A DNA stretch of 64,000 nucleotides from an uncultured Spirochaetaceae bacterium (GTDB lineage: Bacteria > Spirochaetota > Spirochaetia > Sphaerochaetales > Sphaerochaetaceae), in NCBI GenBank assembly GCA_900315435.1, contig OMYY01000001.1, forward strand, positions 1 to 64,000. The letters are read 5' to 3'. The notes below the pieces were generated by a model. That model was given only the letters and a program-made list of their open reading frames with translations, was not told where the DNA came from and did no database searches. Numbering within the stretch: the stretch's first letter is position 1; every line of letters starts with the position of its first letter. The translations under genes and the position numbers were made by a program. Shown piece by piece: positions 2,420-30,055 of the stretch.

Positions 2420-5200
2420 TTGTTTCTCAAGAATCTGGAATTGTACGGGTTCAAGTCTTTTGCCGACAAGACGCATCTGGATTTCTCCGAAGGAATCACG
2501 AGCCTGCTCGGGCCCAACGGCTGCGGGAAAAGCAATATCGTCAACGCCATTCAGTGGGTTCTGGGTGAACAGTCCACCAAGACTTTGCGTGCAAGCCGCA
2601 TGGACGACGTCATTTTCAATGGTACTGACAAACGCAAGCCCATGCAGTTTGCCGAAGTGGCTCTGACCATCGACAACTCCACCCATATACTGAACAGCGA
2701 CGCGACGGAAATCGAGATCAAGCGCCGCATTTTCCGCAACGGCGGCTCCAACGAGTATTTCCTCAACCGCCAGCAGTGCAACCTGCGCGACATTCGCGAC
2801 CTGTTCATGGATACCGGTGTCGGCAAGACCGCCTATTCGATCCTTGCCCAGGGCAAGATCGACGAGATCCTGCTGCAGAACCCCGACCAGCGCCGGAGCC
2901 TGTTCGAGGAAGCGGCGGGCATTTCCCGCTTCAAGGCCGACTCGATTGTCGCCGAGCGCAACCTGGAGAAGACCAACGAGAATATCGCCCAGGTCGAGGT
3001 CATCCTGAAAGAGACCCATCGCACCTACGAGACGAAGAAGACCCAAGCCGAAAAAGCCGCCAAGGCGAGGGTGTTGCGCGAGCAACGCTTCAGCCTGGAG
3101 GTTGACGTGCAGCTCAACTCGATCAAGACCTACCGGCAGATGCAGGAGAACTTCCGCAAGCAGTTCGCCGACAGCCAGGAACAGTTGTCCCAGCTACAGC
3201 AGCAGACCAAGGACGATACCGACCGGCTGGCATCCCTGCAAGAAGAGATGAAACAGCATGGGGCGGCCCGCATCAACTGCCAGATTGCCCAGAAGGAGCT
3301 CAATACCAAGCAGCAGGGTCTGAACGAACAGCTTGACATGCTGACCCGCCACTACCAGGAACTCTTCCTGGAGAAACAGCAGTATGAGGCGAAGGCCGCC
3401 GATTACAAGAGCCGTCTCGACATGGCCCAGGAGGCCTTGGACGAGCAGAACGAGAAGATGGAAGAGATCAACGACCGGCTGGACGAGGTCAACGGCCGGC
3501 TGGAGCGGAACAAGCAGCTTTTGCTCTCCACCAATGCGGAAATCGAGCTGGAAAATGGAAGGATCGGGGAAGGGGAACAGCAGGCGCTCGCTTTCCAGAA
3601 TCAACTGGAGGACCTGCAGGCGACTCTTGGACAGCTGACCGACGTGATTGTCGTCCAGCTGGACCAGAAATTGAAGGATTCTGGCTATAGCGCCGAGAGC
3701 AAGGAGCAAGCCGAACGGCAGTTCAAGAGCCTGCTGGAGAGCCTGAAGCAGACGGCAAGAAGCGGAGACAAGGTCTCGCTGGAATCGCTGGAGCGGCTTT
3801 CCGCACTTTTCGACGAGTTCGTCAGCCATGTCCCGACCTTCCTTGACGAACTGGTCGCCCCTGAGGGCATCATCGGCCAGAAGCACCAGATCGACTCGCA
3901 GATGAACGAGGTCAAGGAGCGGATAGGAAGCATGCGCGAGCATGTGGAAGAACTCCAGGCAAAATTGCGCGAGCTCCAGGGAAACGTGCAGCTCTATACC
4001 GATGCGATCAACCAGGACAACATCCTCAAGACCGAGCTGGATGCACGGAAGAACGGACTTTCGGCCCTGATCGAGCAGATGGAGAAAAACAACGACGACC
4101 TGAAATTCCAGTATGCCGACATGGTCCAGTCCGGCCAGACCGCCACAAGCCGTATCGGCACCACCCAGGACCAGATCCGTGACCTGGAGGAGCAGGGCGA
4201 GGAAGGCAAGCGCAAGCTGGCCGAGCTGAATGACACGCTGCGGGTGGAAGAGGAGACGATCGGCTCGCTGGAGTCCCAGATTGTCCATATTCGTGAAAGC
4301 CAGAACAAGGCGATCGATACGATCAACCGGTTGCGCGACGTGGTGACCAAGAGCCAGGCGAACATCGAGGCGCTGGATACCCAGGTGACAGGCGTCTACA
4401 ACAGCTTTTTCGAGAACTACGGAAAGAGCCTGAAGGAGTACGACTCCCGCCTGAAGGACGACTCGCTGGAGGACTATTCCATCATTCGGGGAAGGTTGGA
4501 AAGCGTGAAGAAGGAGCTCGACTCGATGGGCGGCATCAACCAGATGGCAGAGGACGAGTTCAACGACGTCAAGAAGCAGTACGAATTCCTTTCCAAGCAG
4601 ATGGATGACTTGGAGAAAGCCAAGAGCGACCTGGAGGGGGTGGTCGAGGACATCAAGAAACGGAGCGCGGACCTGTTCCTTGACACCTACCGCCAGATTT
4701 CCCAGAACTTCCAGGAGCTCTACCGCAAGCTCTTTGGTGGCGGTCGTGCCGAATTGCGTCTCGTCGACCCGGACCCCGGCAAGGTGCTGGAGACCGGCAT
4801 CGACATTTTCGCCCAGCCTCCAGGGAAAAAGCTGGTCAACCTGACCGCACTCAGCGGAGGAGAGAGGTCGATGACCGCCGTGGCGTTGCTGTTCGCCACC
4901 TATATGGTGAAGGCGTCTCCGTTCTGCATCCTTGATGAGATTGACGCGGCCCTCGACGACCGCAACATCGGCAACTTCCTTGCCGTGCTGCAGGGGTTTG
5001 CCGAGAAGAGCCAGTTCATCATCATCACCCACAACAAGCACACGGTGTTGGGCTCCTCGTCGATGTTGGGCGTCACCCAGATCGAGGCGGGTGTCTCGAC
5101 CACGGTCAGCTACAAACTGGCCCGCGTGGAAGGCAAGCCGGTCATCATGGATGCCGAGAACAAGACGGTCGACTTCACCGCTGACGGCAAGCGGAAATAG
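2420..5200 (+). CDS. smc: Chromosome condensation protein SMC, short form
   Basis: SMC ATPase that compacts and segregates the chromosome with ScpA/ScpB. The Walker A block GPNGCGKS is at 31-38, the ABC signature LSGGE at 811-815 and Walker B ILDEID around 837-842, with long coiled coils between. It has 926 residues against the usual 1150-1200. The middle (about 405-480), where a globular hinge is expected, looks helical and charged with no hinge-type glycine motifs. I prefer the TTG at 2420, behind AAGGA, because it gives the family N-terminus MFLKNLELYGFKSFA. An ATG at 2387 would add 11 residues but has GGAGG about 12 bases away. It is divergent from rnhB, and ffh follows after its own promoter. 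Confidence 0.93.
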   Translation: MFLKNLELYGFKSFADKTHLDFSEGITSLLGPNGCGKSNIVNAIQWVLGEQSTKTLRASRMDDVIFNGTDKRKPMQFAEVALTIDNSTHILNSDATEIEIKRRIFRNGGSNEYFLNRQQCNLRDIRDLFMDTGVGKTAYSILAQGKIDEILLQNPDQRRSLFEEAAGISRFKADSIVAERNLEKTNENIAQVEVILKETHRTYETKKTQAEKAAKARVLREQRFSLEVDVQLNSIKTYRQMQENFRKQFADSQEQLSQLQQQTKDDTDRLASLQEEMKQHGAARINCQIAQKELNTKQQGLNEQLDMLTRHYQELFLEKQQYEAKAADYKSRLDMAQEALDEQNEKMEEINDRLDEVNGRLERNKQLLLSTNAEIELENGRIGEGEQQALAFQNQLEDLQATLGQLTDVIVVQLDQKLKDSGYSAESKEQAERQFKSLLESLKQTARSGDKVSLESLERLSALFDEFVSHVPTFLDELVAPEGIIGQKHQIDSQMNEVKERIGSMREHVEELQAKLRELQGNVQLYTDAINQDNILKTELDARKNGLSALIEQMEKNNDDLKFQYADMVQSGQTATSRIGTTQDQIRDLEEQGEEGKRKLAELNDTLRVEEETIGSLESQIVHIRESQNKAIDTINRLRDVVTKSQANIEALDTQVTGVYNSFFENYGKSLKEYDSRLKDDSLEDYSIIRGRLESVKKELDSMGGINQMAEDEFNDVKKQYEFLSKQMDDLEKAKSDLEGVVEDIKKRSADLFLDTYRQISQNFQELYRKLFGGGRAELRLVDPDPGKVLETGIDIFAQPPGKKLVNLTALSGGERSMTAVALLFATYMVKASPFCILDEIDAALDDRNIGNFLAVLQGFAEKSQFIIITHNKHTVLGSSSMLGVTQIEAGVSTTVSYKLARVEGKPVIMDAENKTVDFTADGKRK

Positions 5201-5210
5201 ATGGGCAACC

Positions 5211-5240
5211 TTGACAGTTCAAGCGCCGTTACGGTATAAG
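5211..5240 (+). promoter_or_regulatory. Promoter of the ffh-rplS operon
   Basis: A consensus TTGACA (5211-5216) and TATAAG (5235-5240) are 18 bases apart, just after the smc stop and 19 bases before the ffh start. It is a good sigma-70 type match and probably drives the whole ffh-rpsP-khpA-rimM-trmD-rplS series. Confidence 0.75.
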
Positions 5241-5259
5241 CATACAGGATAGGATAGGT

Positions 5260-6615
5260 ATGTTCGAAGCGATAAGCGAAAAGTTTTCCGACATCATGCG
5301 CGCCATGGCCGGAAAATCCAAAATCACGGAAAAGAATGTCGAAGATGCGGTAGAGGAGATCAAAGTCGCGCTCCTGGACGCCGATGTCAATCTTCGCGTC
5401 GTTCGCCGGTTCATCAACGCAACATTGGAAGAGGCGAAGGGCGAGAAGGTCCTGAAGGCGGTCAATCCCGGACAGCAGTTTGTCAAGATCGTCTACGACC
5501 GCATGGTCTCGCTTCTTTCCGATCCGGACAACCAGAAATTGGCCCTGCGTGGGCCTGATGTCACCAGCGTGCTGCTGATGATGGGTCTACAGGGTTCTGG
5601 CAAGACCACCACGGCCGCCAAGCTGGGTGTCTTCCTGACCAAGCAGGGACGCCGTCCTTTGCTTGCCGCCTGCGACCTTGTCAGGCCTGCCGCCATCCAG
5701 CAGCTGAAAGTGCTCGGCGAGCAGGCGGGAGTTCCCGTCTATACCGAGGAAGGGGCAAATGATCCGGCGAAAGTCGCCAGCGATGCCCTTGCCTATGCCA
5801 GGAAATACCAGTATGACGTGCTGATCGTCGATACCAGCGGACGCATGTACCTGGACGACGAGCTGATGAATGAGCTTGGCCGCATCCAGAAAGCGGTCAG
5901 TCCGGACGAGACGCTGTTTGTCGCCGACTCCATGACCGGTCAGAACGCCGTCACCATCGCCAAGGAATTCGAGGACCGCATCGGCATCTCCGGCGTGATT
6001 CTCACCAAGTTCGACTCGGATACCCGTGGCGGCGCCGCGCTCTCGCTGCGCAGCGTAGTGGGCAAGCCGATCAAGTTCATCGGAACCGGTGAGAAAAAGG
6101 ACGATATCTCACCGTTCTATCCTGATCGTATCGCCAGCCGGATTCTCGGCATGGGCGATATCGTCTCCCTTGTCGAGAAGGCGCAGGAGACGGTCAGCCA
6201 GGAGGACGCGCTGAGGCTGCAGAAGAAACTGCAGAAGAACACGTTCGACCTGGAGGATTACCTGGAGCAGCTGGAGTCGATGAACAAGATGGGCTCCGTC
6301 GACCAGATCCTCGACATGATTCCGGGTATGAAGGGCGCCGTCGACCCCAACCAGATCGACCTGGGCGTCTTCGAGAAGGAAAAGGCGATCATCCGTTCGA
6401 TGAACAAGCGCGAGAGACACGATATCCGCATCATCGGGCCGGATCGCCGCAAGCGCATCGCTCGGGGAAGCGGTACGACGGTCAACGACGTCAACAAGCT
6501 GCTGAAGCGTTTCGAGAAGATGCGCAACGCGATGCACAAGTTCGCCAAGAACAAGAAGTATCAGATGGCCATGCTTGAGCAACTGCAGAAGATGCAGAAC
6601 CAGGCAGGAAGATAA
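5260..6615 (+). CDS. ffh: Signal recognition particle GTPase Ffh
   Basis: A 451-residue Ffh, the SRP protein that binds signal sequences and 4.5S RNA and docks with FtsY at the membrane. The N domain is about 1-90. The G domain has GLQGSGKTT at 109-117, an insertion-box region with CDLVRPAAIQQL, the G3 motif at 191-195 and the G4 motif TKFD at 249-252. The C-terminal methionine-rich M domain starts near 295. Two motifs deviate from the usual text: DTSGR instead of DTAGR, and TKFDSDTRGGA instead of TKLDGDARGGA. Length and domain order are normal. It is first in an operon with ribosomal and RNA-maturation genes. Confidence 0.97.
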   Translation: MFEAISEKFSDIMRAMAGKSKITEKNVEDAVEEIKVALLDADVNLRVVRRFINATLEEAKGEKVLKAVNPGQQFVKIVYDRMVSLLSDPDNQKLALRGPDVTSVLLMMGLQGSGKTTTAAKLGVFLTKQGRRPLLAACDLVRPAAIQQLKVLGEQAGVPVYTEEGANDPAKVASDALAYARKYQYDVLIVDTSGRMYLDDELMNELGRIQKAVSPDETLFVADSMTGQNAVTIAKEFEDRIGISGVILTKFDSDTRGGAALSLRSVVGKPIKFIGTGEKKDDISPFYPDRIASRILGMGDIVSLVEKAQETVSQEDALRLQKKLQKNTFDLEDYLEQLESMNKMGSVDQILDMIPGMKGAVDPNQIDLGVFEKEKAIIRSMNKRERHDIRIIGPDRRKRIARGSGTTVNDVNKLLKRFEKMRNAMHKFAKNKKYQMAMLEQLQKMQNQAGR

Positions 6616-20179: not shown

Positions 20180-22132
20180 TCAGCCTGCCGTTTCCGGCTC
20201 GCGATGTCTCTTCCCGTCGATTGCGGTGGAAACCTGGGTGAGAACCATGACGATGGCAATCAGGACGATGCCGATGATGTCGGTCTTGGTGCCAGGAACC
20301 ACCAGCGCCAATCCTCCTGCGATGGAGACACATCTCAGAAGCGGTTTCACAGGTCCGTTGAGGTAGCCGATGAAGCCGGCGCCGATTCCTATCAGTCCGA
20401 TGATGGCGGTGACCACCATGGGCAAGGCTTCGAGGAAGGTGCCTCCAATCATGATCATCTTCGGATTCATCGCGAACATGTAGGGAATCAAGAAGGCGGC
20501 GATGGCGAGCTTGGTCGCGTTGACGCCCGTCTTGAAGGCGTTGCCCCCTGCAATGGCGCTTCCCGCGTATGCGGCCAGGGCGACGGGTGGGGTGATGTCG
20601 GCGACAATGCCGAAGTAGAAGCAGAACATGTGCGCCGCCAGCATCGGGATGCCGGCACGGATCAGGATAGGAGCCGCGATCGTACTGGTGATCAGGTAGT
20701 TGCTGGTGGTGGAGACTCCCATTCCCAAAATCAAGCTGGTGAACATGGCGCAGACCAAGGCCAGAAAGACGTTGTTTCCAACCAGATTGAAGATACCGGC
20801 TCCGATGCGCTGTCCAAGGCCTGTCAGGGTGACCATGCCGATGATGATGCCGGCGGTGGAACACGCGGTGGCGACGCTGATGACGCTTCGGCCTGCCTGG
20901 GGCAGGGCCTTGAAAATCTGGAAGAAGGGGACTCTGGTGTTCTTTCGCAGATACGGGACAATCAGGCAGATGAGACAGCCGTACAGGGCGCTGCGGGTGA
21001 TGGTCAGACCGCTGAGCATGAAGTAGATGATGCAGGCAAGCGGAAGGATCAGATGTCCCTTTGCCCGCAACAAAAGAAGCAGTCTTGGCAGTTGCTCCCG
21101 TGGAGTTCCCTTCAATCCAAGCCGTTTTGCCTCGAGATGGACACTGATCCAGATGCCGATGAAATAGAGTGAGGCAGGGATGATCGCCACTAGGATCAAC
21201 TGGCGATAGGGGATGCCGCAGGCATCACTGATCAGGAAAGCCGCGCTTCCCATGACCGGGGGCATGATCTGGCCGCCGGTAGAGGCAGCGGCCTCGACTG
21301 CTCCGGCGAATTCCGGCTCATAGCCGAGGCTCTTCATCAATGGAATGGTGAAAGTGCCGGTGGAGACCGTGTTGGAGACGGAGGATCCACTGACCGTACC
21401 TTGCAGCGCGCTGGAAAGGACTGCCACCTTCGCTGGACCTCCTGCGGCCCATCCTGCCAGGGAGTTGGCCAGGTCGATGAAGAACTGGCCGATCTTGGTC
21501 TTCTCAAGGAAGGCGCCAAAGAGGATGAACAGGAAGATGTAGGTCGAACAGACCCCGAGGGGGTTGCCGATGACGCCCTCGGTGGTGATGAACAAATGGG
21601 TGATGATCCGCTTCAGCGCGAACCCGCGGTGCCGCAGGAATCCGCCCATATACTTGCCCACCATCCCATAAAGGAAGAAACAGGAGGCGATGATGACAAT
21701 CGGCGGACCGACGACGCGCCAGCAGGCAAGCAGCACCAGTGCGATGCCTAGACCCGCCATGACGGTATCCACCATGGTGTACGCCCCGGCACGGAACTGC
21801 AAGGGTTTGTAATTCACGATGAAATAGCCGACCGTGCAGACAAACAGGAATGCGAACAGGCAGTCGTACCAGGGTAGCTTGTGCCTGTCCGCATGCTTGG
21901 TCGCGGGGTAGAGCAGGAAGGCGAGACTGATGGCGAACCCCAGATGCGTATAGCGGAGGATCTGGAGCGGCACCTTGTTGGAAATCGACGCGTACAGCTG
22001 GAAAAGCGCGAAAACCGTCAGGATGACAGAAATGACGTTGTCCCCCGTTGGGGAGAAAATCTTATACTTGGATTCACGGTCAATCGCCGTAAGGTCGATT
22101 GGTTCCGTTGCAGGCTTGTTTGACATGTGCAT
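20180..22132 (-). CDS. TRAP transporter fused permease, TAXI type
   Basis: 650 residues, almost entirely membrane segments, carrying the fused small (DctQ-like) and large (DctM-like) permease parts. Typical DctM blocks are visible: GTVSGSSVSNTVSTGTFTIPLMKS, seen in two pieces, the GGQIMPPVMGSAAFL block and the late repeat TPPVALAAYAGSAIAGG. Together these mark a TRAP large subunit. Fused permeases usually partner TAXI-type binding proteins, which fits the upstream gene. TRAP systems import organic acids using a sodium or proton gradient. The partner gene is disrupted by an IS, so this transporter may be orphaned. Confidence 0.92.
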   Translation of the reverse strand: MHMSNKPATEPIDLTAIDRESKYKIFSPTGDNVISVILTVFALFQLYASISNKVPLQILRYTHLGFAISLAFLLYPATKHADRHKLPWYDCLFAFLFVCTVGYFIVNYKPLQFRAGAYTMVDTVMAGLGIALVLLACWRVVGPPIVIIASCFFLYGMVGKYMGGFLRHRGFALKRIITHLFITTEGVIGNPLGVCSTYIFLFILFGAFLEKTKIGQFFIDLANSLAGWAAGGPAKVAVLSSALQGTVSGSSVSNTVSTGTFTIPLMKSLGYEPEFAGAVEAAASTGGQIMPPVMGSAAFLISDACGIPYRQLILVAIIPASLYFIGIWISVHLEAKRLGLKGTPREQLPRLLLLLRAKGHLILPLACIIYFMLSGLTITRSALYGCLICLIVPYLRKNTRVPFFQIFKALPQAGRSVISVATACSTAGIIIGMVTLTGLGQRIGAGIFNLVGNNVFLALVCAMFTSLILGMGVSTTSNYLITSTIAAPILIRAGIPMLAAHMFCFYFGIVADITPPVALAAYAGSAIAGGNAFKTGVNATKLAIAAFLIPYMFAMNPKMIMIGGTFLEALPMVVTAIIGLIGIGAGFIGYLNGPVKPLLRCVSIAGGLALVVPGTKTDIIGIVLIAIVMVLTQVSTAIDGKRHREPETAG

Positions 22133-22149
22133 GTTCCTATTGTTGTCTG

Positions 22150-22181
22150 AAAAGGCAGGAATCCCTTAGGAATCCCTGCCT
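22150..22181 (-). terminator. Hairpin between binding protein and permease genes
   Basis: AGGCAGG pairs with CCTGCCT and the stem extends inward to about 13 bp with wobble pairs; TTTT follows on the minus strand. This intra-operon hairpin probably lowers permease relative to binding-protein expression. Confidence 0.6.
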
Positions 22182-23149
22182 GTCCAAGAAGATGGTTACT
22201 TCAGGAAATCAGGAATTGCGAGTCCCTGTTCCTCGTAGTATTTGCGAGCGCCCGGATGCAAGTTGGCGGGGATGCCGTTGAGGGCGGAATCGATGCTCAT
22301 GTACTTCGCCTTGGCGTTGATTGCCTGGATCTCACCGAGGTGCTCGTAGATAGCCTTGGTGAGTTCGTAGATGGCTTGGTCGGAGAACTTCTCGTTGACA
22401 ATCAGCATGCACTTGACCGCGACAGAAGTGATTGCATGACCGACATTGTAATCGTCGCTCGGCGTTTCAAACCTAGCGTAGTAAGGATACTTGTCAAGCA
22501 GGATCCGCATATGCTCATCGTCAATGGACAAGACGTCGATATTCTTGTTCAGAGAGAGCTCCATGACGTTTCCATTGGGGAAGCCGGAGCAGAGAAACAT
22601 GGCGTCGAAGGTGCCATCCTGAATTCCATTTTTCGCTGTAGCTTGGTCGGCGAAGGTTTCGTTGATATCGTCATAGGTCATGCCGTAGGCACCAAGGATT
22701 TGCCGTGCCGCGACCTCATATCCGCTTCCGACCGCGCCGACACAGATGTTCTTGCCTCGCATGTCGGCGACACTCTTGATGCCGCTTTTCTTGGAGACGA
22801 CCATCTGGACCATTTCGGGATAGCAGGCGGTAATCGCGTACAAGTTGGTGATAGGCTTGCCGTTGAAGAGCTCGATGCCATGCAGGGCATAGCTGTAGAC
22901 GTCGCTCTGGATCATCGCGAACTCGTTGTCTCCGCTGCCGACAAGGCGGGCGTTCTCTGTTGAGCCACCGGTGGCGTTGACGGTCAGGTTTGCCCCCGTG
23001 GCCTGATTGACCACCGTGCTGAGAGCGGAGCCGAAGGCATAGTAGTTCCCAGTAGCTGACCCAGTCCCCATTAGGTAACTGCCACTAAAGTGTTCCTCGA
23101 GCTTCCCGGATGATGCCTGTTCCGCGCCACCATTGGCGAAAAGTCCAAA

Positions 23150-23156
23150 CCCGACA
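23150..23156. repeat. Target site duplication, left copy
   Basis: CCCGACA directly abuts the IS left end (TGT). The same 7 bases follow the right end at 25710-25716. Confidence 0.9.
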
Positions 23157-23342
23157 TGTATTCCGACAGCAAAAATGGATAGGAAGTCCGAAAATAATGG
23201 ATAATGTGTCCGCCTGAATCGGATACAGGGAAATGACAGGCAATCCGCAGGAAACGGATAGCTTCTCCGGCATGGATGGATAATGCGATAGGATGTGATG
23301 CGGCTCGTATGGGCCGTTATTTCATTCTATCGGAGGTAGTCT

Positions 23343-24890
23343 ATGATAAAGGACTACAGGCAGCTGATGCTGCTGTCGAAGAAAGGTCTCTCCATACGGC
23401 AGATAGCCAGGATGGCAGGATGCAAATGGGAGACGGCAAGGGATGCGCTGGAGCGCATGAGGGAAGCCTATGGATCTTTGGATGCCATTCCACCCGAGGC
23501 CACATCGGATGACATAAGGGACATGGTCCGCACGAGGCATGAGACGCAGGACGGAGGGTATCTGCCGGTCGACTGCGACGAGATCCTTGAGAAGCGCCGG
23601 CACGGGACTTCGATGGATAAGCTGTGGGCCGGCTATGCAAAAGGAGCCGAGAAGCTCGGGAAGAACGCATACAGAAGATCCCGGTTCTGCGAGATTGTCG
23701 CTGATTATGCCTCGAGAAAAGGCATAGCGGTCAGCATTGAGAAGGTGCCGGGGATAAGATGCGAGGTGGACTGGGTCGGCGACAAGGCGCACATCACCGA
23801 TGTGGATACAGGGGAGCTGCTTCCGATCCACATATTCGTGATGGCCCTTCCATACAGCAGCTACTTCTACTGTGAGGGCTTCTTCGATGAGAGGATGGGC
23901 TCGTGGCTGACTGGCCATAAGCATGGCTTCGAGTTCTTCGGAGGGGTCCCTGTGGTTCTCGTTCCCGACAACTGCAAGACAGCTGTCACGGAAGGACGCA
24001 GAAGGTTCTATGAGGAAGTGGTCCTGAACAGGAAGTACAGCGATTTCGCAGACTATTACGGCATTGCCGTCAGACCTGCGCGCATCCGCCATCCGAAGGA
24101 CAAGAGCGTATGCGAGAGAAGCGTGAGGATCATAGAGGATGACATCATGCCGGAGATGGAGGAGCTGGACATCTATTCCCTCGATGAATTCAACAGCATC
24201 CTCAGGAAGAAGCTGATAAGAAGGCTGGCAAGGCCATTCTCCAAGCGCTATGGTTCCCGGACCTCGATATTCGAGGAGGAAGAGAAGAAGACGCTGCTCC
24301 CGCTCCCTGTTGCAGGATACCACTCATACACCGAGAGGGAAGCAGCTGTTGGCAGGGATGGGTACATACAGTACTCATGCGCCTTCTACAGTGTACCTCC
24401 GCAGTACATAAAGAAGAAGGTCATAGCGAGGAGCTACGAAGGCAGGCTCTACATCTATGATGATCATCGCATGCTGATAGCCGAGCATCCGATTGCCTCC
24501 CGCAAGTGGCAGAGGGTGACGGATCCGGAGCATCAGAGATACGACCTTGCGCTCTACGGAGGCTATTCGAAGATGGAATTCGACAATGCTGCCCGCTCCA
24601 TAGGCTCAGGCATGTATGAATGGGTGCAGCAGGTGAAAGGGAGATGGGAATGCGAGGCCGATTCATACAGGACGCTCCTGGGTGTCTTCTCATGGATAAA
24701 GCGGTTCCCTGCGGACATTGCGGAAGCTGCGGCACAGCAGGCGCTGAATTCAGGCATATTCAGCGTGAGGGGATTCAAGGCGATCGTCTCCAGATGCATC
24801 GCAGAAAGCGAGAAGACAAGGCAGGAGAAGCAGAACATCAACAGCATCTACATCGCACACAAGGAGGATGACAATGGATACGAAGGATAA
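23343..24890 (+). CDS. istA: IS21-family transposase IstA
   Basis: 515 residues. An N-terminal helix-turn-helix (LSIRQIARMAGCKWETARDAL, about 16-36, read in parts) is followed by an RNase H-like integrase core. The likely catalytic triad is D143 (EVDWVGD), D209 (VPDNCKT) and E258 (KSVCERSVR). A C-terminal Mu-transposase-type beta domain follows near 330-400. The ATG is behind GGAGG. It carries out strand transfer of the element with IstB. It overlaps istB by 17 bases. Confidence 0.95.
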   Translation: MIKDYRQLMLLSKKGLSIRQIARMAGCKWETARDALERMREAYGSLDAIPPEATSDDIRDMVRTRHETQDGGYLPVDCDEILEKRRHGTSMDKLWAGYAKGAEKLGKNAYRRSRFCEIVADYASRKGIAVSIEKVPGIRCEVDWVGDKAHITDVDTGELLPIHIFVMALPYSSYFYCEGFFDERMGSWLTGHKHGFEFFGGVPVVLVPDNCKTAVTEGRRRFYEEVVLNRKYSDFADYYGIAVRPARIRHPKDKSVCERSVRIIEDDIMPEMEELDIYSLDEFNSILRKKLIRRLARPFSKRYGSRTSIFEEEEKKTLLPLPVAGYHSYTEREAAVGRDGYIQYSCAFYSVPPQYIKKKVIARSYEGRLYIYDDHRMLIAEHPIASRKWQRVTDPEHQRYDLALYGGYSKMEFDNAARSIGSGMYEWVQQVKGRWECEADSYRTLLGVFSWIKRFPADIAEAAAQQALNSGIFSVRGFKAIVSRCIAESEKTRQEKQNINSIYIAHKEDDNGYEG

Positions 24891-25611
24891 CATACTCTCC
24901 ATCTGCGACTCCCTTCATGTGCTGGGGCAGCAGAAGGCAGCTGAGGACATACGAATGATAGCCGAGAAAGGCAGGCCTTCCCTTGAGGATCTTTCGTCAT
25001 GCCTCCGCGATTGTGCTGCAAGGTTCTCGAATGAGAGATTCGAACGCTATGCAAGACGGGCAAAGATAGGAAGCCTATGCTCCTTTTCTGACATCATCGA
25101 TTCCCCGGAACGCAGGCTGGACCTGGAATACATCTCTGAGCTGAATTCTCTTGGATTCATACGTAGCGGCTTCAATCTCGTGATCTGGGGACCTCCGGGA
25201 ACGGGCAAGTCATGGATCGCAAGGATGATTGCCACATCCGCATGCGCGGCCGGGCTACGCACGAGGTGGACGTCGTTTCCTGTTCTCTATGACCAGCTCC
25301 TAAGGCTCTACAGGAACACAGATGGACAGACGCTGGACAGCAAGCTCATGTACTATTCGAGATTCGATCTGCTGTGCATCGACGAATTCCCGAATGTCTC
25401 AGAGATGGACCCTTTCCTTGTGCAGCAGATGTTCAACACGTTCTCCGAGAGAGGTCATTCCATCCTCCTCTGCATGCAGTGCCAGCCGGAGAAGATGGAG
25501 GAGTTGTTCTCGATAACGAGCATAGGACAGTCCATAAAAGGACGGATCCTTCAGAAGGCAAAGAGGCTTCATCTCAGCGGCACTGATCTCCGTTTGACGG
25601 ACGTTTCATAA
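24874..25611 (+). CDS. istB: IS21-family helper ATPase IstB
   Basis: About 245 residues, a DnaA-like AAA+ ATPase that helps IstA choose and capture target DNA. Walker A is GPPGTGKSW near residue 109; Walker B is LLCIDEFPN near 165. I choose the ATG at 24874 because AAGGAGG lies 6 bases upstream; an ATG at 24868 overlaps that site. Translation is probably coupled to istA. Confidence 0.93.
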   Translation: MDTKDNILSICDSLHVLGQQKAAEDIRMIAEKGRPSLEDLSSCLRDCAARFSNERFERYARRAKIGSLCSFSDIIDSPERRLDLEYISELNSLGFIRSGFNLVIWGPPGTGKSWIARMIATSACAAGLRTRWTSFPVLYDQLLRLYRNTDGQTLDSKLMYYSRFDLLCIDEFPNVSEMDPFLVQQMFNTFSERGHSILLCMQCQPEKMEELFSITSIGQSIKGRILQKAKRLHLSGTDLRLTDVS

Positions 25612-25709
25612 AGGATTCTACGATTCCTGCGGATAGGTTCTCCGAACTGGGGCGGACAACCTATCCGTTTTCAAGCGGACATGTTCTCCTTTTGGGGCGG
25701 AAGAAAACA

Positions 25710-25716
25710 CCCGACA
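25710..25716. repeat. Target site duplication, right copy
   Basis: CCCGACA follows the IS right end (ACA) and matches 23150-23156. Confidence 0.9.
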
Positions 25717-25785
25717 GAAATGATGAGAGCAAAGCTCACAAGCTTTTTCACATGAGACCTCCTCATAATGTAATGACAAAATTCT

Positions 25786-25880: not shown

Positions 25881-27131
25881 CTATTGGTTTTTCGCATCAA
25901 GCCGCTCTTTGGCGATTGCCAGCATCAGCTTGATCCGGTTCTCCTGGTTCACATGGCTGGCCGACGGGTCGTAGTCGATCGGGACGATATTGGCGTCGGG
26001 CACCTTTTCGCGCACCGCATGGACCATGCCCTTGGCGACGATATGGTTGGGTAGGCATCCGAACGGCTGGGTGCAGATGATGTTGGAATACCCAAGGTGG
26101 ACCAGCTCCATCATCTCTGCCGTGAGCAGCCATCCTTCGCCCATCTTGACTCCGTAATCCAAGAGATCCCTGTCGTATTCCTTTTCCTTGAGATACGGTG
26201 CAGGCGCGATGTAGCAGTCGTGTCTCTTGATGGCGTCGATCATCTTCTTCTCTCCTTTGTAGAAGAATTTCAGGACACGTTGGGTGATGACGCTCTGCAG
26301 GAAGAGGTGTCCGTAGTATTTGCGGTCGAGCCTGGCGTTGTCAAAACCGTAGTAGAAGAAGTTCATGACGTTGGGAATCATCACCTCGCAGCCGTTTTCC
26401 TCGAGGAATTTCTGCAGTTGGTTGTTGCCCAGGTCGGAATACTTCATGTAGATCTCGCCGACAATGCCGACTTTGATCTTCGGCACCCGTTTGACCGGGA
26501 TGGCGGCGAATTCGTCGACGATTTGTCTGAAGTTCTCGTCCATGTGCCTGCCAAAGTAGCCGTGGTTGGACTTGAACTTCGCACCCATGATCTTGACCCA
26601 GCGCTGGATCAAGGCGTCCGTGTCTCCCTTGTGGGTCTCGTAGGGACGGGTCTGGTTGGCGACGGTCATGATCAGGTCGCCATAGACCGCCGCGGCATAG
26701 GCCTGCGCGACCATCAGCGGGGTCAGCTTGAAGCCCGGGTTCTCATCCATTCCCTTGAAATTCAGGCTGATGACGGGGACGTAGTCAAAGCCACAGGCTG
26801 CCAGCGCCTTCTTCAGAAGGAACAAGTAGTTCGAGGCACGGCAGCCACCTCCGGTCTGGGTGATCAGCAGGGCGACCTTGCGGGTGTCCCACCTGCCACT
26901 CTTCAAGGCATCGATGAACTGGCCGATGACCAACTGGGCCGGATAGCAGATATCGTTGTTCACGTAGCGCAGCCCCTCGCGGATCACGTTCGGTCCCCTG
27001 TTGTCGAGCACCTCGGTATGGTAGCCATGGTTGGCGAAAATCTCCCGCTCGAGCGCAAAGTGGATCGGGAGCATGTCTGGGGCGAGGAGCGTGTAGTCCT
27101 TGCGCATCTCCTTGGTAAACGGCTGGCTCAT
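25881..27131 (-). CDS. Acyl-CoA dehydratase activase-related protein, C-terminal half
   Basis: 416 residues. It resembles the last third of the large 2-hydroxyacyl-CoA dehydratase activase-related proteins (DUF2229 region onward), with NNDICYPAQLVIGQFIDAL, LITQTGGGCRASNY and IICTQPFGCLPNH blocks. The last two carry cysteines that could hold an iron-sulfur cluster. In other anaerobes this segment is part of one long chain; here it is a separate gene overlapping the upstream one by ATGA. The ATG at 27131 is chosen for that overlap; longer frames upstream read through the neighbour. The substrate is unknown and no dehydratase subunits are nearby. Confidence 0.85.
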   Translation of the reverse strand: MSQPFTKEMRKDYTLLAPDMLPIHFALEREIFANHGYHTEVLDNRGPNVIREGLRYVNNDICYPAQLVIGQFIDALKSGRWDTRKVALLITQTGGGCRASNYLFLLKKALAACGFDYVPVISLNFKGMDENPGFKLTPLMVAQAYAAAVYGDLIMTVANQTRPYETHKGDTDALIQRWVKIMGAKFKSNHGYFGRHMDENFRQIVDEFAAIPVKRVPKIKVGIVGEIYMKYSDLGNNQLQKFLEENGCEVMIPNVMNFFYYGFDNARLDRKYYGHLFLQSVITQRVLKFFYKGEKKMIDAIKRHDCYIAPAPYLKEKEYDRDLLDYGVKMGEGWLLTAEMMELVHLGYSNIICTQPFGCLPNHIVAKGMVHAVREKVPDANIVPIDYDPSASHVNQENRIKLMLAIAKERLDAKNQ

Positions 27132-30055
27132 TGGTTGTTCTTCTCCTCGATGGCCGAGAGCAGGCTGCGGAGCCTGATACGGACCGCTCCCAGATTGGTG
27201 ATCTCGTCGATCTTGATCTGGGTGTAGATCTTGTCCTTCTGCTTCAGGATGGCACGTACCTCGTCGGTGGTCACTGCGTCCAGACCGCACCCGAAGCTGA
27301 CCAGCTGGACCACCTGCATGTCGTTCTTGTCCAGCGTGTATCTGGCGGCGTCGTACATGCGGGCGTGGAAGGTCCACTGGTTGAGTACCCCGCGTTTCTC
27401 GTAGCCCATCAGCGGAGCGAGGGAATCCTCGCTGACCACGGCGCATCCAAGCTGCAGCATCAGCCTGTCGATGCCATGGTTGATTTCCGGGTCGTTATGG
27501 TAGGGGCGTCCTACCACCACAAGGATCGGCATGTGTCTCTGGCGCGCCAAGGTGATGATTTTGGCCGCCTGGCTTCGCACCGCCTTCTGGTAATCCCGGT
27601 AGGCCTGATAGGCTTTGCCCGATGCCTCCCGGATTTCCTTCATGGTGAACGTTCCCAAATCCTTCAGGATGGCGCTCATCCGTTTGGGAAAGTAGGCCTC
27701 GTCGCCTAGGGAGACAAAGGGATCCAGGAACCGCACGTGTCCCTCGCTCAGCTCGGGAATATTGTGTTGGATCACCTGCGGGTAGTAGGCGACGATCGGA
27801 CAGTTGAAATGGTTGTCCCCCTTGCGCTCGTCGACATTGTAGGAGGAACAGGGATAGAAAATCGTCTTGATTCCCGCCTGTATCATCTCCTCGATGTGCC
27901 CATGGACCAGTTTGGCAGGGTAGCAGATCGTATCGCTGGGAATCGTCGCCTGACCATCAAGATAGGTCTGCCGGCTGGACTGCCTGCTGACCAGCACCTT
28001 GTAGCCGAGGGACGTGAAGAAGGTATGCCAGAAGGGAAGGAACTCCCAGTTGCCCAACACCATCGGTATGCCGATTTCTCCCCGCTTTCCCTCCTGCGGC
28101 TGGAAATGCTCCATGTAGGTTTCCTTGAAGGCCATGATGTCGAGCACCGTCGGGTCCTCGATGAAGGCGGCAGGGTTGGTCATGCGCTCGCACTTGTTCC
28201 CGCTGACCATCCGTCTGCCTCCATCAAAGGTGTTGACGGTCAGCTGGCAATGGTTGGTGCACCCCTTGCACTGCATGGTCCTCGTCGTATGGACGAAGCT
28301 TTGCAACTGCTCCAGATCCAGCATCGTCCGTTCCTTCGGAGCTTTCTGGTGCTGCCGCATCGCATAGAGTGCGCAGCCATAGGCGCCCATCAGTCCCGCC
28401 TGGTCGACCCGGACCACTTCGGTCTGCAGCTCCTGCTCGAAAGCGCGGAGCACCGCATCGTTCAGGAAGGTCCCGCCTTGGACGACGATATGGCGGCCGA
28501 GGGTGGTGGCGTCAGTGGAACGGATCACCTTGTACAGCGCGTTCTTGACGACGCTGATGGCAAGGCCGGCAAAAATGTCGGAAACCTGGGCACCATCCTT
28601 CTGGGCCTGCTTGACCTGACTGTTCATGAAGACCGTGCACCGGCTTCCCAAATCGACCGGACGGGTCGACTGCAGGGCGAGCCGGGCGGCTTCTCCGGCA
28701 CTATAACCGAGCGCATTGCTGAAGGTCTGCAGGAAAGAGCCGCAACCGGAGGAGCATGCCTCGTTCAGGAAGATATCGTCCACCGCGCCATCGCGGATCT
28801 TGAAGCATTTGATATCCTGTCCGCCGATGTCGATGATGAAATCGACGTCAGGCATGAACGTGCGCGCCGCGATGAAATGGGCGATTGTCTCGACGATGGA
28901 GTATTCCAGGTTGAAGCCGTTCTTGACCAACGCCTCTCCGTAACCGGTGCTGCAGCCCTTTTGCAGATGGACCTTGGGGTACTTGCTCTGCACGTCGATC
29001 AGGAACTGGCGGACTGCCTCGACGGGGTTTCCGTTGTTGTTCTCGTAGCGGCTGTAGAGCAGGTTTCCCTCGGGGTCTACCAGGCAGCTCTTGATGGTGG
29101 TCGAACCGGAGTCGATGCCGACAAAGGCATCCCCCTCGTAGGTCTCGATATCCCGTTTGGGCAACTTTGCCTTGGCATGCCGTTCCTGGAACGCCCTCAG
29201 TTCGGATCCGTCCTTGAACAGCGGTTCCAAGGAGGAATAGGTCCCCTTGTTGGTATAGTTGGACAGTTCGTTCCGCAAGCTTTGATAATCGGTCTCTCCC
29301 GCTCCCGGAGCGAGGGCGGTGCCCAGAGCGACGTAGTACAGGGAGTTCTCCGGACAGAGTCCATGGGTGTGGAGCGCCCTGTCGAAACAAGCCCTCAGTT
29401 GGCTGAGGAAGGTAAGGGGGCCGCCGAGGTAGACGACGTTACCCTTGATCGGACGTCCCTGGGCGAGGCCGCCGATAGTCTGGTTGACCACCGCCTGAAA
29501 AATCGAGACGATGATGTCGCTTTTCTTCGCCCCTTGGTTGACCAGGGGCTGGACGTCGGTCTTGGCGAAGACGCCGCAGCGGCTGGCGATCGTGTAGCTT
29601 TGGGTCGCTTCCTTGGCCAGGTCGTCAAGCTGGTCGCTGCTCAGGCCAAGCAGGCTCGCCATCTGGTCGATGAAGCTGCCAGTCCCGCCGGCGCAGGTGC
29701 CGTTCATGCGGACCTCCAGGTTTCCGTCAAGAAACAGGATTTTCGCGTCCTCGCCACCAAGCTCGATGACGACGTTGCTGCCGGGCAGGTATTTCAGGAC
29801 GGCGGTACGGGTGGCGTAGACCTCCTGCACGAAGGGCAGGTGCAGGTTCTGGGCCATGCCCATGCCTGCCGATCCGGAAATGGAAATAGCGCATTTCCGG
29901 TCCTGCAGCAGCGGCCGCATCTTCTCGAGCAGGCTCAATGCCGTCTCGGGGATTTGGGAGTAATGTCTCTGGTAATGGGAAAAAAGCAAATTGCCCTGCT
30001 CGTCGAGCAGGACGCACTTCATCGTCGTGGATCCCACATCAAGTCCGAGTCTCAC
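27128..30055 (-). CDS. Acyl-CoA dehydratase activase-like protein with two ATPase domains
   Basis: 975 residues with two ASKHA-type ATPase domains of the BadF/BadG/BcrA/HgdC family. The first has GLDVGSTTMK at 4-13 and ELGGEDAK near 98-105, with C121 and C160 as cluster ligands. The second has GIDSGSTTIK near 317 and DIGGQDIK, with matching Cys in EACSSGCGSF and GSRCTVF. A Cys-rich segment (CKGCTNHC) and the start of the DUF2229 region follow. Family members use ATP to inject an electron into dehydratases or related enzymes. The start is GTG and the stop of thiI overlaps it as GTGA. The specific partner is unknown. Confidence 0.9.
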   Translation of the reverse strand: MRLGLDVGSTTMKCVLLDEQGNLLFSHYQRHYSQIPETALSLLEKMRPLLQDRKCAISISGSAGMGMAQNLHLPFVQEVYATRTAVLKYLPGSNVVIELGGEDAKILFLDGNLEVRMNGTCAGGTGSFIDQMASLLGLSSDQLDDLAKEATQSYTIASRCGVFAKTDVQPLVNQGAKKSDIIVSIFQAVVNQTIGGLAQGRPIKGNVVYLGGPLTFLSQLRACFDRALHTHGLCPENSLYYVALGTALAPGAGETDYQSLRNELSNYTNKGTYSSLEPLFKDGSELRAFQERHAKAKLPKRDIETYEGDAFVGIDSGSTTIKSCLVDPEGNLLYSRYENNNGNPVEAVRQFLIDVQSKYPKVHLQKGCSTGYGEALVKNGFNLEYSIVETIAHFIAARTFMPDVDFIIDIGGQDIKCFKIRDGAVDDIFLNEACSSGCGSFLQTFSNALGYSAGEAARLALQSTRPVDLGSRCTVFMNSQVKQAQKDGAQVSDIFAGLAISVVKNALYKVIRSTDATTLGRHIVVQGGTFLNDAVLRAFEQELQTEVVRVDQAGLMGAYGCALYAMRQHQKAPKERTMLDLEQLQSFVHTTRTMQCKGCTNHCQLTVNTFDGGRRMVSGNKCERMTNPAAFIEDPTVLDIMAFKETYMEHFQPQEGKRGEIGIPMVLGNWEFLPFWHTFFTSLGYKVLVSRQSSRQTYLDGQATIPSDTICYPAKLVHGHIEEMIQAGIKTIFYPCSSYNVDERKGDNHFNCPIVAYYPQVIQHNIPELSEGHVRFLDPFVSLGDEAYFPKRMSAILKDLGTFTMKEIREASGKAYQAYRDYQKAVRSQAAKIITLARQRHMPILVVVGRPYHNDPEINHGIDRLMLQLGCAVVSEDSLAPLMGYEKRGVLNQWTFHARMYDAARYTLDKNDMQVVQLVSFGCGLDAVTTDEVRAILKQKDKIYTQIKIDEITNLGAVRIRLRSLLSAIEEKNNQ

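Follow-up and report, generated by a model that had tools for sequence, protein, structure and literature searches.

An IS21-family element splits a TAXI-type TRAP binding-protein gene inside its signal peptide in an uncultured spirochaete

In the assembly of an uncultured Spirochaetaceae bacterium (GCA_900315435.1), an insertion sequence lies between two fragments that resemble the start and the body of one gene for a TRAP solute-binding protein (SBP). This raises the questions of whether an intact ancestral gene was broken here, how recently, and what the break would mean for the transporter. The locus was analysed in a window of 64,000 nucleotides (contig OMYY01000001.1, positions 1 to 64,000 of the forward strand). 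Altogether, we consider it very nearly certain that an IS21 element was recently inserted into the SBP gene and split it, with loss of the transporter deduced from this damage.

An IS21-family element with intact istA and istB

The element spans 2553 bp (23157..25709, plus strand), has the ends TGT...ACA, and is the sole full-length copy in its own assembly. It carries intact genes for the DDE transposase IstA (515 aa; 23343..24890, plus strand) and, directly behind it and overlapping its end, for the AAA+ ATPase helper IstB (24874..25611, plus strand), which has 245 residues from an ATG after GGAGG, or 247 if read from 24868. IstA matches the model NF033546 transpos_IS21 with 199.4 bits against a cut-off of 160. 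Alignment with IstA of IS5376 (PDB 8q4d) showed that its residues D143, D209 and E258 correspond to D124, D187 and E233, the catalytic residues named in PMC11208146. IstB passes PF01695 IstB_IS21 (75.7 bits, cut-off 24.1) and falls below the NCBIfam IstB cut-off (NF038214, 90.8 versus 200); its best PDB matches are IS5376 IstB, and its translation contains the Walker A motif GPPGTGKS. The two family models, the DDE triad and the Walker A motif thus bear out the IS21 identity first assigned from the letters alone.

Target-site duplications of the IS21 family are 4-8 bp long, and that of the present element is 7 bp, CCCGACA. Its ends are of the TG...CA type and carry multi-unit terminal inverted repeats: the left end (23157..23285, plus strand) bears repeated units of ~20 bp of the form GGATA...TCCG, and the right end (25624..25709, minus strand) contains inverted copies of them. 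Repeated units in opposite orientation at the two ends are the described plan of the family (PMC10122671). Compared to the studied members IS5376 and IS21, the sequence of the element is distant, whereas its plan shows no difference, sharing the order istA then istB with a short overlap, the DDE triad, the AAA+ IstB, several ~20-bp repeats per end, the TG...CA ends and a short target duplication.

Full-length relatives of the element, 88% and 84% identical (L033 and L034), were found in other genomes of the family, together with end fragments up to 100% identical. These relatives have exactly the same boundary in different flanks, which establishes where the element ends without recourse to the target duplication; the copy in L033 has an apparent 4-bp duplication, TTTC. 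The own genome holds the one full copy, one partial copy of 83% identity (C57:7606-9027) and one relative of ~69% (C29:31427-33673) (L002-L004). A preference of the element for signal peptides of binding proteins finds no support, as the sequences flanking its other copies have nothing in common, and the one copy whose surroundings were examined, that in L033, sits near unrelated genes.

The rebuilt gene and its empty site in a sister species

The insertion site lies within the signal-peptide codons of a minus-strand gene for a TAXI-type TRAP SBP, and CCCGACA stands on both sides of the element (23150..23156 and 25710..25716). The 5′ part of the gene (25710..25751, minus strand), closely preceded by GGAGG, comprises a GTG start and 14 codons of the signal peptide, VKKLVSFALIISVG, and the 3′ part (22196..23156, minus strand) comprises the remaining signal peptide and the whole mature protein, open to the stop. 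Removal of the element and one CCCGACA copy from the minus strand restores one continuous reading frame, 331 codons up to the stop, VKKLVSFALIISVGFGLFANGGAEQASSG..., which starts with the GTG at 25751, preceded by GGAGG, and is translated as VKKLVSFALIISVGFGLFANGGAEQ.... The original prediction had given the 2553-bp element, the two CCCGACA copies, the junction, the frame, the coordinates and the length exactly so, and its GTG start and GGAGG site are confirmed as well.

The prediction had also proposed that relatives be compared for an empty site. Searching public species genomes with the 3′ part revealed such a site in a sister species, a Spirochaetales MAG (isolate SUG1938, JAQYHB010000044), which carries this gene with a protein identity of 99.7%. 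The sister locus (L012) has the same gene order and an uninterrupted gene of 331 codons, VKKLVSLALIISVGFGLFANGSAEQ..., in which the supposed ancestral gene is found with the predicted junction. TGTCGGG, the minus-strand form of the duplicated target, occurs once in this locus, exactly at that junction. The two contigs are collinear over ~48 kb, with their alignment interrupted at 23156 and 25709. In addition, a 3.9-kb stretch of a genome of the same genus (L006, genome G002) is letter-identical to the sister locus.

The insertion event is therefore real, since the sister species retains the undamaged gene, and we found nothing that speaks against the insertion itself. A chance match of 7 bp at both ends of a defined element would have a probability of ~6e-5 (4^-7), a consideration made irrelevant by the empty site in the relative, which rules out a chance origin of the repeats. 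The arrangement might instead be ancestral, the gene truly starting elsewhere with another start or signal peptide, so that nothing was lost. No evidence in support of this reading was found, and it is refuted by the sister's empty site with the predicted peptide; complete signal peptides resembling it, with the form MKKRQLFLIALLALVMSISLFAAGDSEKA, also occur in distant members of the family. We give it practically no credence.

The interrupted transporter and the age of the insertion

The 3′ part matches TIGR02122 TRAP_TAXI with 281.9 bits (cut-off 84.35) and PF16868 with 268 bits, which confirms the interrupted gene as that of a TRAP binding protein and places it in the TAXI class. Downstream lies a fused TRAP permease of 650 aa (20180..22132, minus strand; TIGR02123 TRAP_fused, 684.9 bits, cut-off 320.65), whose reading frame is uninterrupted, as had been claimed, and whose protein is 98.8% identical in the sister species. 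Among 21 other loci examined that have a related SBP, every one whose sequence extends far enough downstream shows the permease immediately behind that SBP. A TAXI-subfamily SBP with an adjoining fused permease gene is likewise the layout of the systems of TtGluBP (PDB 1us4/1us5) and VcGluP; unlike in those systems, the binding-protein gene is split here, and the signal peptide for export, present in the sister, is divided by the element.

Among solved structures, the glutamate/glutamine binder of Thermus and a chain nearly identical to it are the closest. In the alignment, the Tyr of TG-x-Y, the Ser of TGGS and a Gln matching Gln78 of TtGluBP are shared with TtGluBP; the roles of residues in TtGluBP and VcGluP, including the key tyrosine and glutamine, are described in PMC11574862. 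These residues hint at an amino-acid or organic-acid ligand, and the earlier term "organic acids" is a guess at the level of the class.

Outside the genus, the nearest SBP relatives found in our scan are 69-77% identical, with one partial match of 81% (L013-L031, L055), and those of the SBP and permease come mostly from rumen and gut Clostridia and Synergistota. Within the own family, a single genome reaches 63% SBP identity and the others at most 37%. As the closest relatives beyond the genus are mostly Clostridia and Synergistota and the own family is distant, the comparison suggests that the SBP-permease pair (20180-25751) may have been acquired horizontally. In the related SBP genes, flagged internal stop codons proved to be ordinary gene ends in the loci read. 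One related gene, in an uncultured Dysosmobacter MAG (L029, 5001-5926), changes frame in the alignment at 5186, which suggests either a frameshift or a mistake in the assembly. The region upstream of the split gene (25881-30055, minus strand) encodes a 2-hydroxyacyl-CoA-dehydratase-type activase protein of 975 aa with two activase stretches, together with a companion of 416 aa that is weakly similar to DUF2229 and whose gene starts 4 bp within that of the activase.

The split gene and its sister counterpart differ at 12 of 996 nucleotides, 11 of them at third positions, and at 2 of 331 amino acids, with an intact frame and a dN of 0.0026, a dS of 0.047 and a dN/dS of ~0.06. Since so few replacement changes point to purifying selection during nearly all the time since the two copies parted, the insertion would have come late. 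These comparisons support a recent insertion, as judged against the divergence from the sister species, and the absence of the element from the sister agrees with this part of the original prediction.

A coding sequence without decay is expected of a very young allele or one at low frequency, and most cells of a mixed population could carry an intact gene, the insertion being a minority or transient variant. As the source assembly is a draft (96.6% complete, 85 contigs), the insertion may indeed not be fixed in the population. Against a minority variant, both sides of the element were assembled through within one contig, and the own assembly yielded no second intact or uninterrupted copy of the gene. 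We thus regard a minority variant as unlikely, while giving it more weight than any other alternative to a recent insertion that inactivated the gene.

The SBP gene as a whole is itself unusually similar between the two species. Without the element, it shows 98.8% DNA identity (22196-25751 against 4956-5951 of the sister locus), differing at 1.2% of sites, compared to 6.9% for the sequence on either side (Fisher p 4e-16, by a test that ignores differences in constraint). Its dS lies below the values for the neighbouring genes (0.17-0.40) and for the intact ribosomal-protein genes in the comparison (0.085-0.20). The two species may recently have exchanged this gene alone by homologous recombination, or its synonymous sites may be under constraint. 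Strong codon bias is not supported as the cause: the effective codon number is 47.9, the bias is weaker than in the neighbours, and the ribosomal genes diverge more.

Consequences for export and transport

We propose that the IstA transposase, with its helper IstB, brought the element into the signal-peptide region of the SBP gene. The insertion duplicated 7 bp of the target, and it cuts the remaining gene off from its promoter region, its ribosome-binding site, its start codon and its first 14 codons. Read into the element, the 5′ fragment stops after CFLPPQKENMSA, giving 26 residues in total. Listing the codons across the junction revealed no ATG, GTG or TTG in the frame of the 3′ fragment before 23071 (codon 40, past the signal peptide), which makes loss of export very likely, and with these two fragments no exported binding protein would be expected. 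The fused permease is intact and now cut off from the upstream promoter region; it would be left without its binding protein and would probably be transcribed much less.

The minus strand at the left end of the element (23157-23329), read outward, forms an open stretch of ~57 codons that shares the reading frame of the interrupted gene. Translation of the SBP might accordingly still begin inside the element and give it a hydrophobic, element-derived leader, RFRRTHYPLFSDFLSIFAVGIHV, fused to GFGLFANGG, and some activity would then be kept. After 23329, this frame runs without a stop across the junction and on into the gene, and the joined sequence combines a charged part with a hydrophobic core, whose best 12-residue mean is 2.02 versus 2.53 for the native peptide. 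However, the frame lacks ATG, GTG and TTG before 23071 and offers near-cognate codons only (CTG, ATC, ATT, ATA) with no clear adjoining ribosome-binding site, and a promoter scan of the element found no sigma-70-like match on the minus strand. We therefore hold residual activity by this route to be improbable. A shade less probable still is that this leader replaces the signal peptide, the insertion only lowering or rewiring expression of the transporter.

With a 26-residue 5′ fragment, a startless 3′ fragment and no promoter-like site, an insertion that inactivated the gene would probably mean loss of this transporter in this strain. This reasoning also draws on a DctP-type TRAP transporter, whose uptake in liposomes is strictly SBP-dependent (PMC9971032), and assumes that the dependence carries over to TAXI systems. 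Two observations weigh against a complete loss of function: the genome holds two other TAXI SBP-permease pairs, whose SBPs are ~25% identical to the split one, and the ~57-codon frame into the element is fairly hydrophobic near the junction.

Insertion of an insertion sequence into a gene is a well-known type of event, and the present case is ordinary genome turnover. Literature searches on TAXI systems together with insertion sequences and on the name of the sister isolate returned nothing relevant for either topic. Together with its matching empty site, the locus is a documented case of an IS21 element recently inactivating a gene in a spirochaete lineage of the gut type, and it offers a natural candidate for asking whether a TAXI permease can serve any use when its own binding protein is missing.
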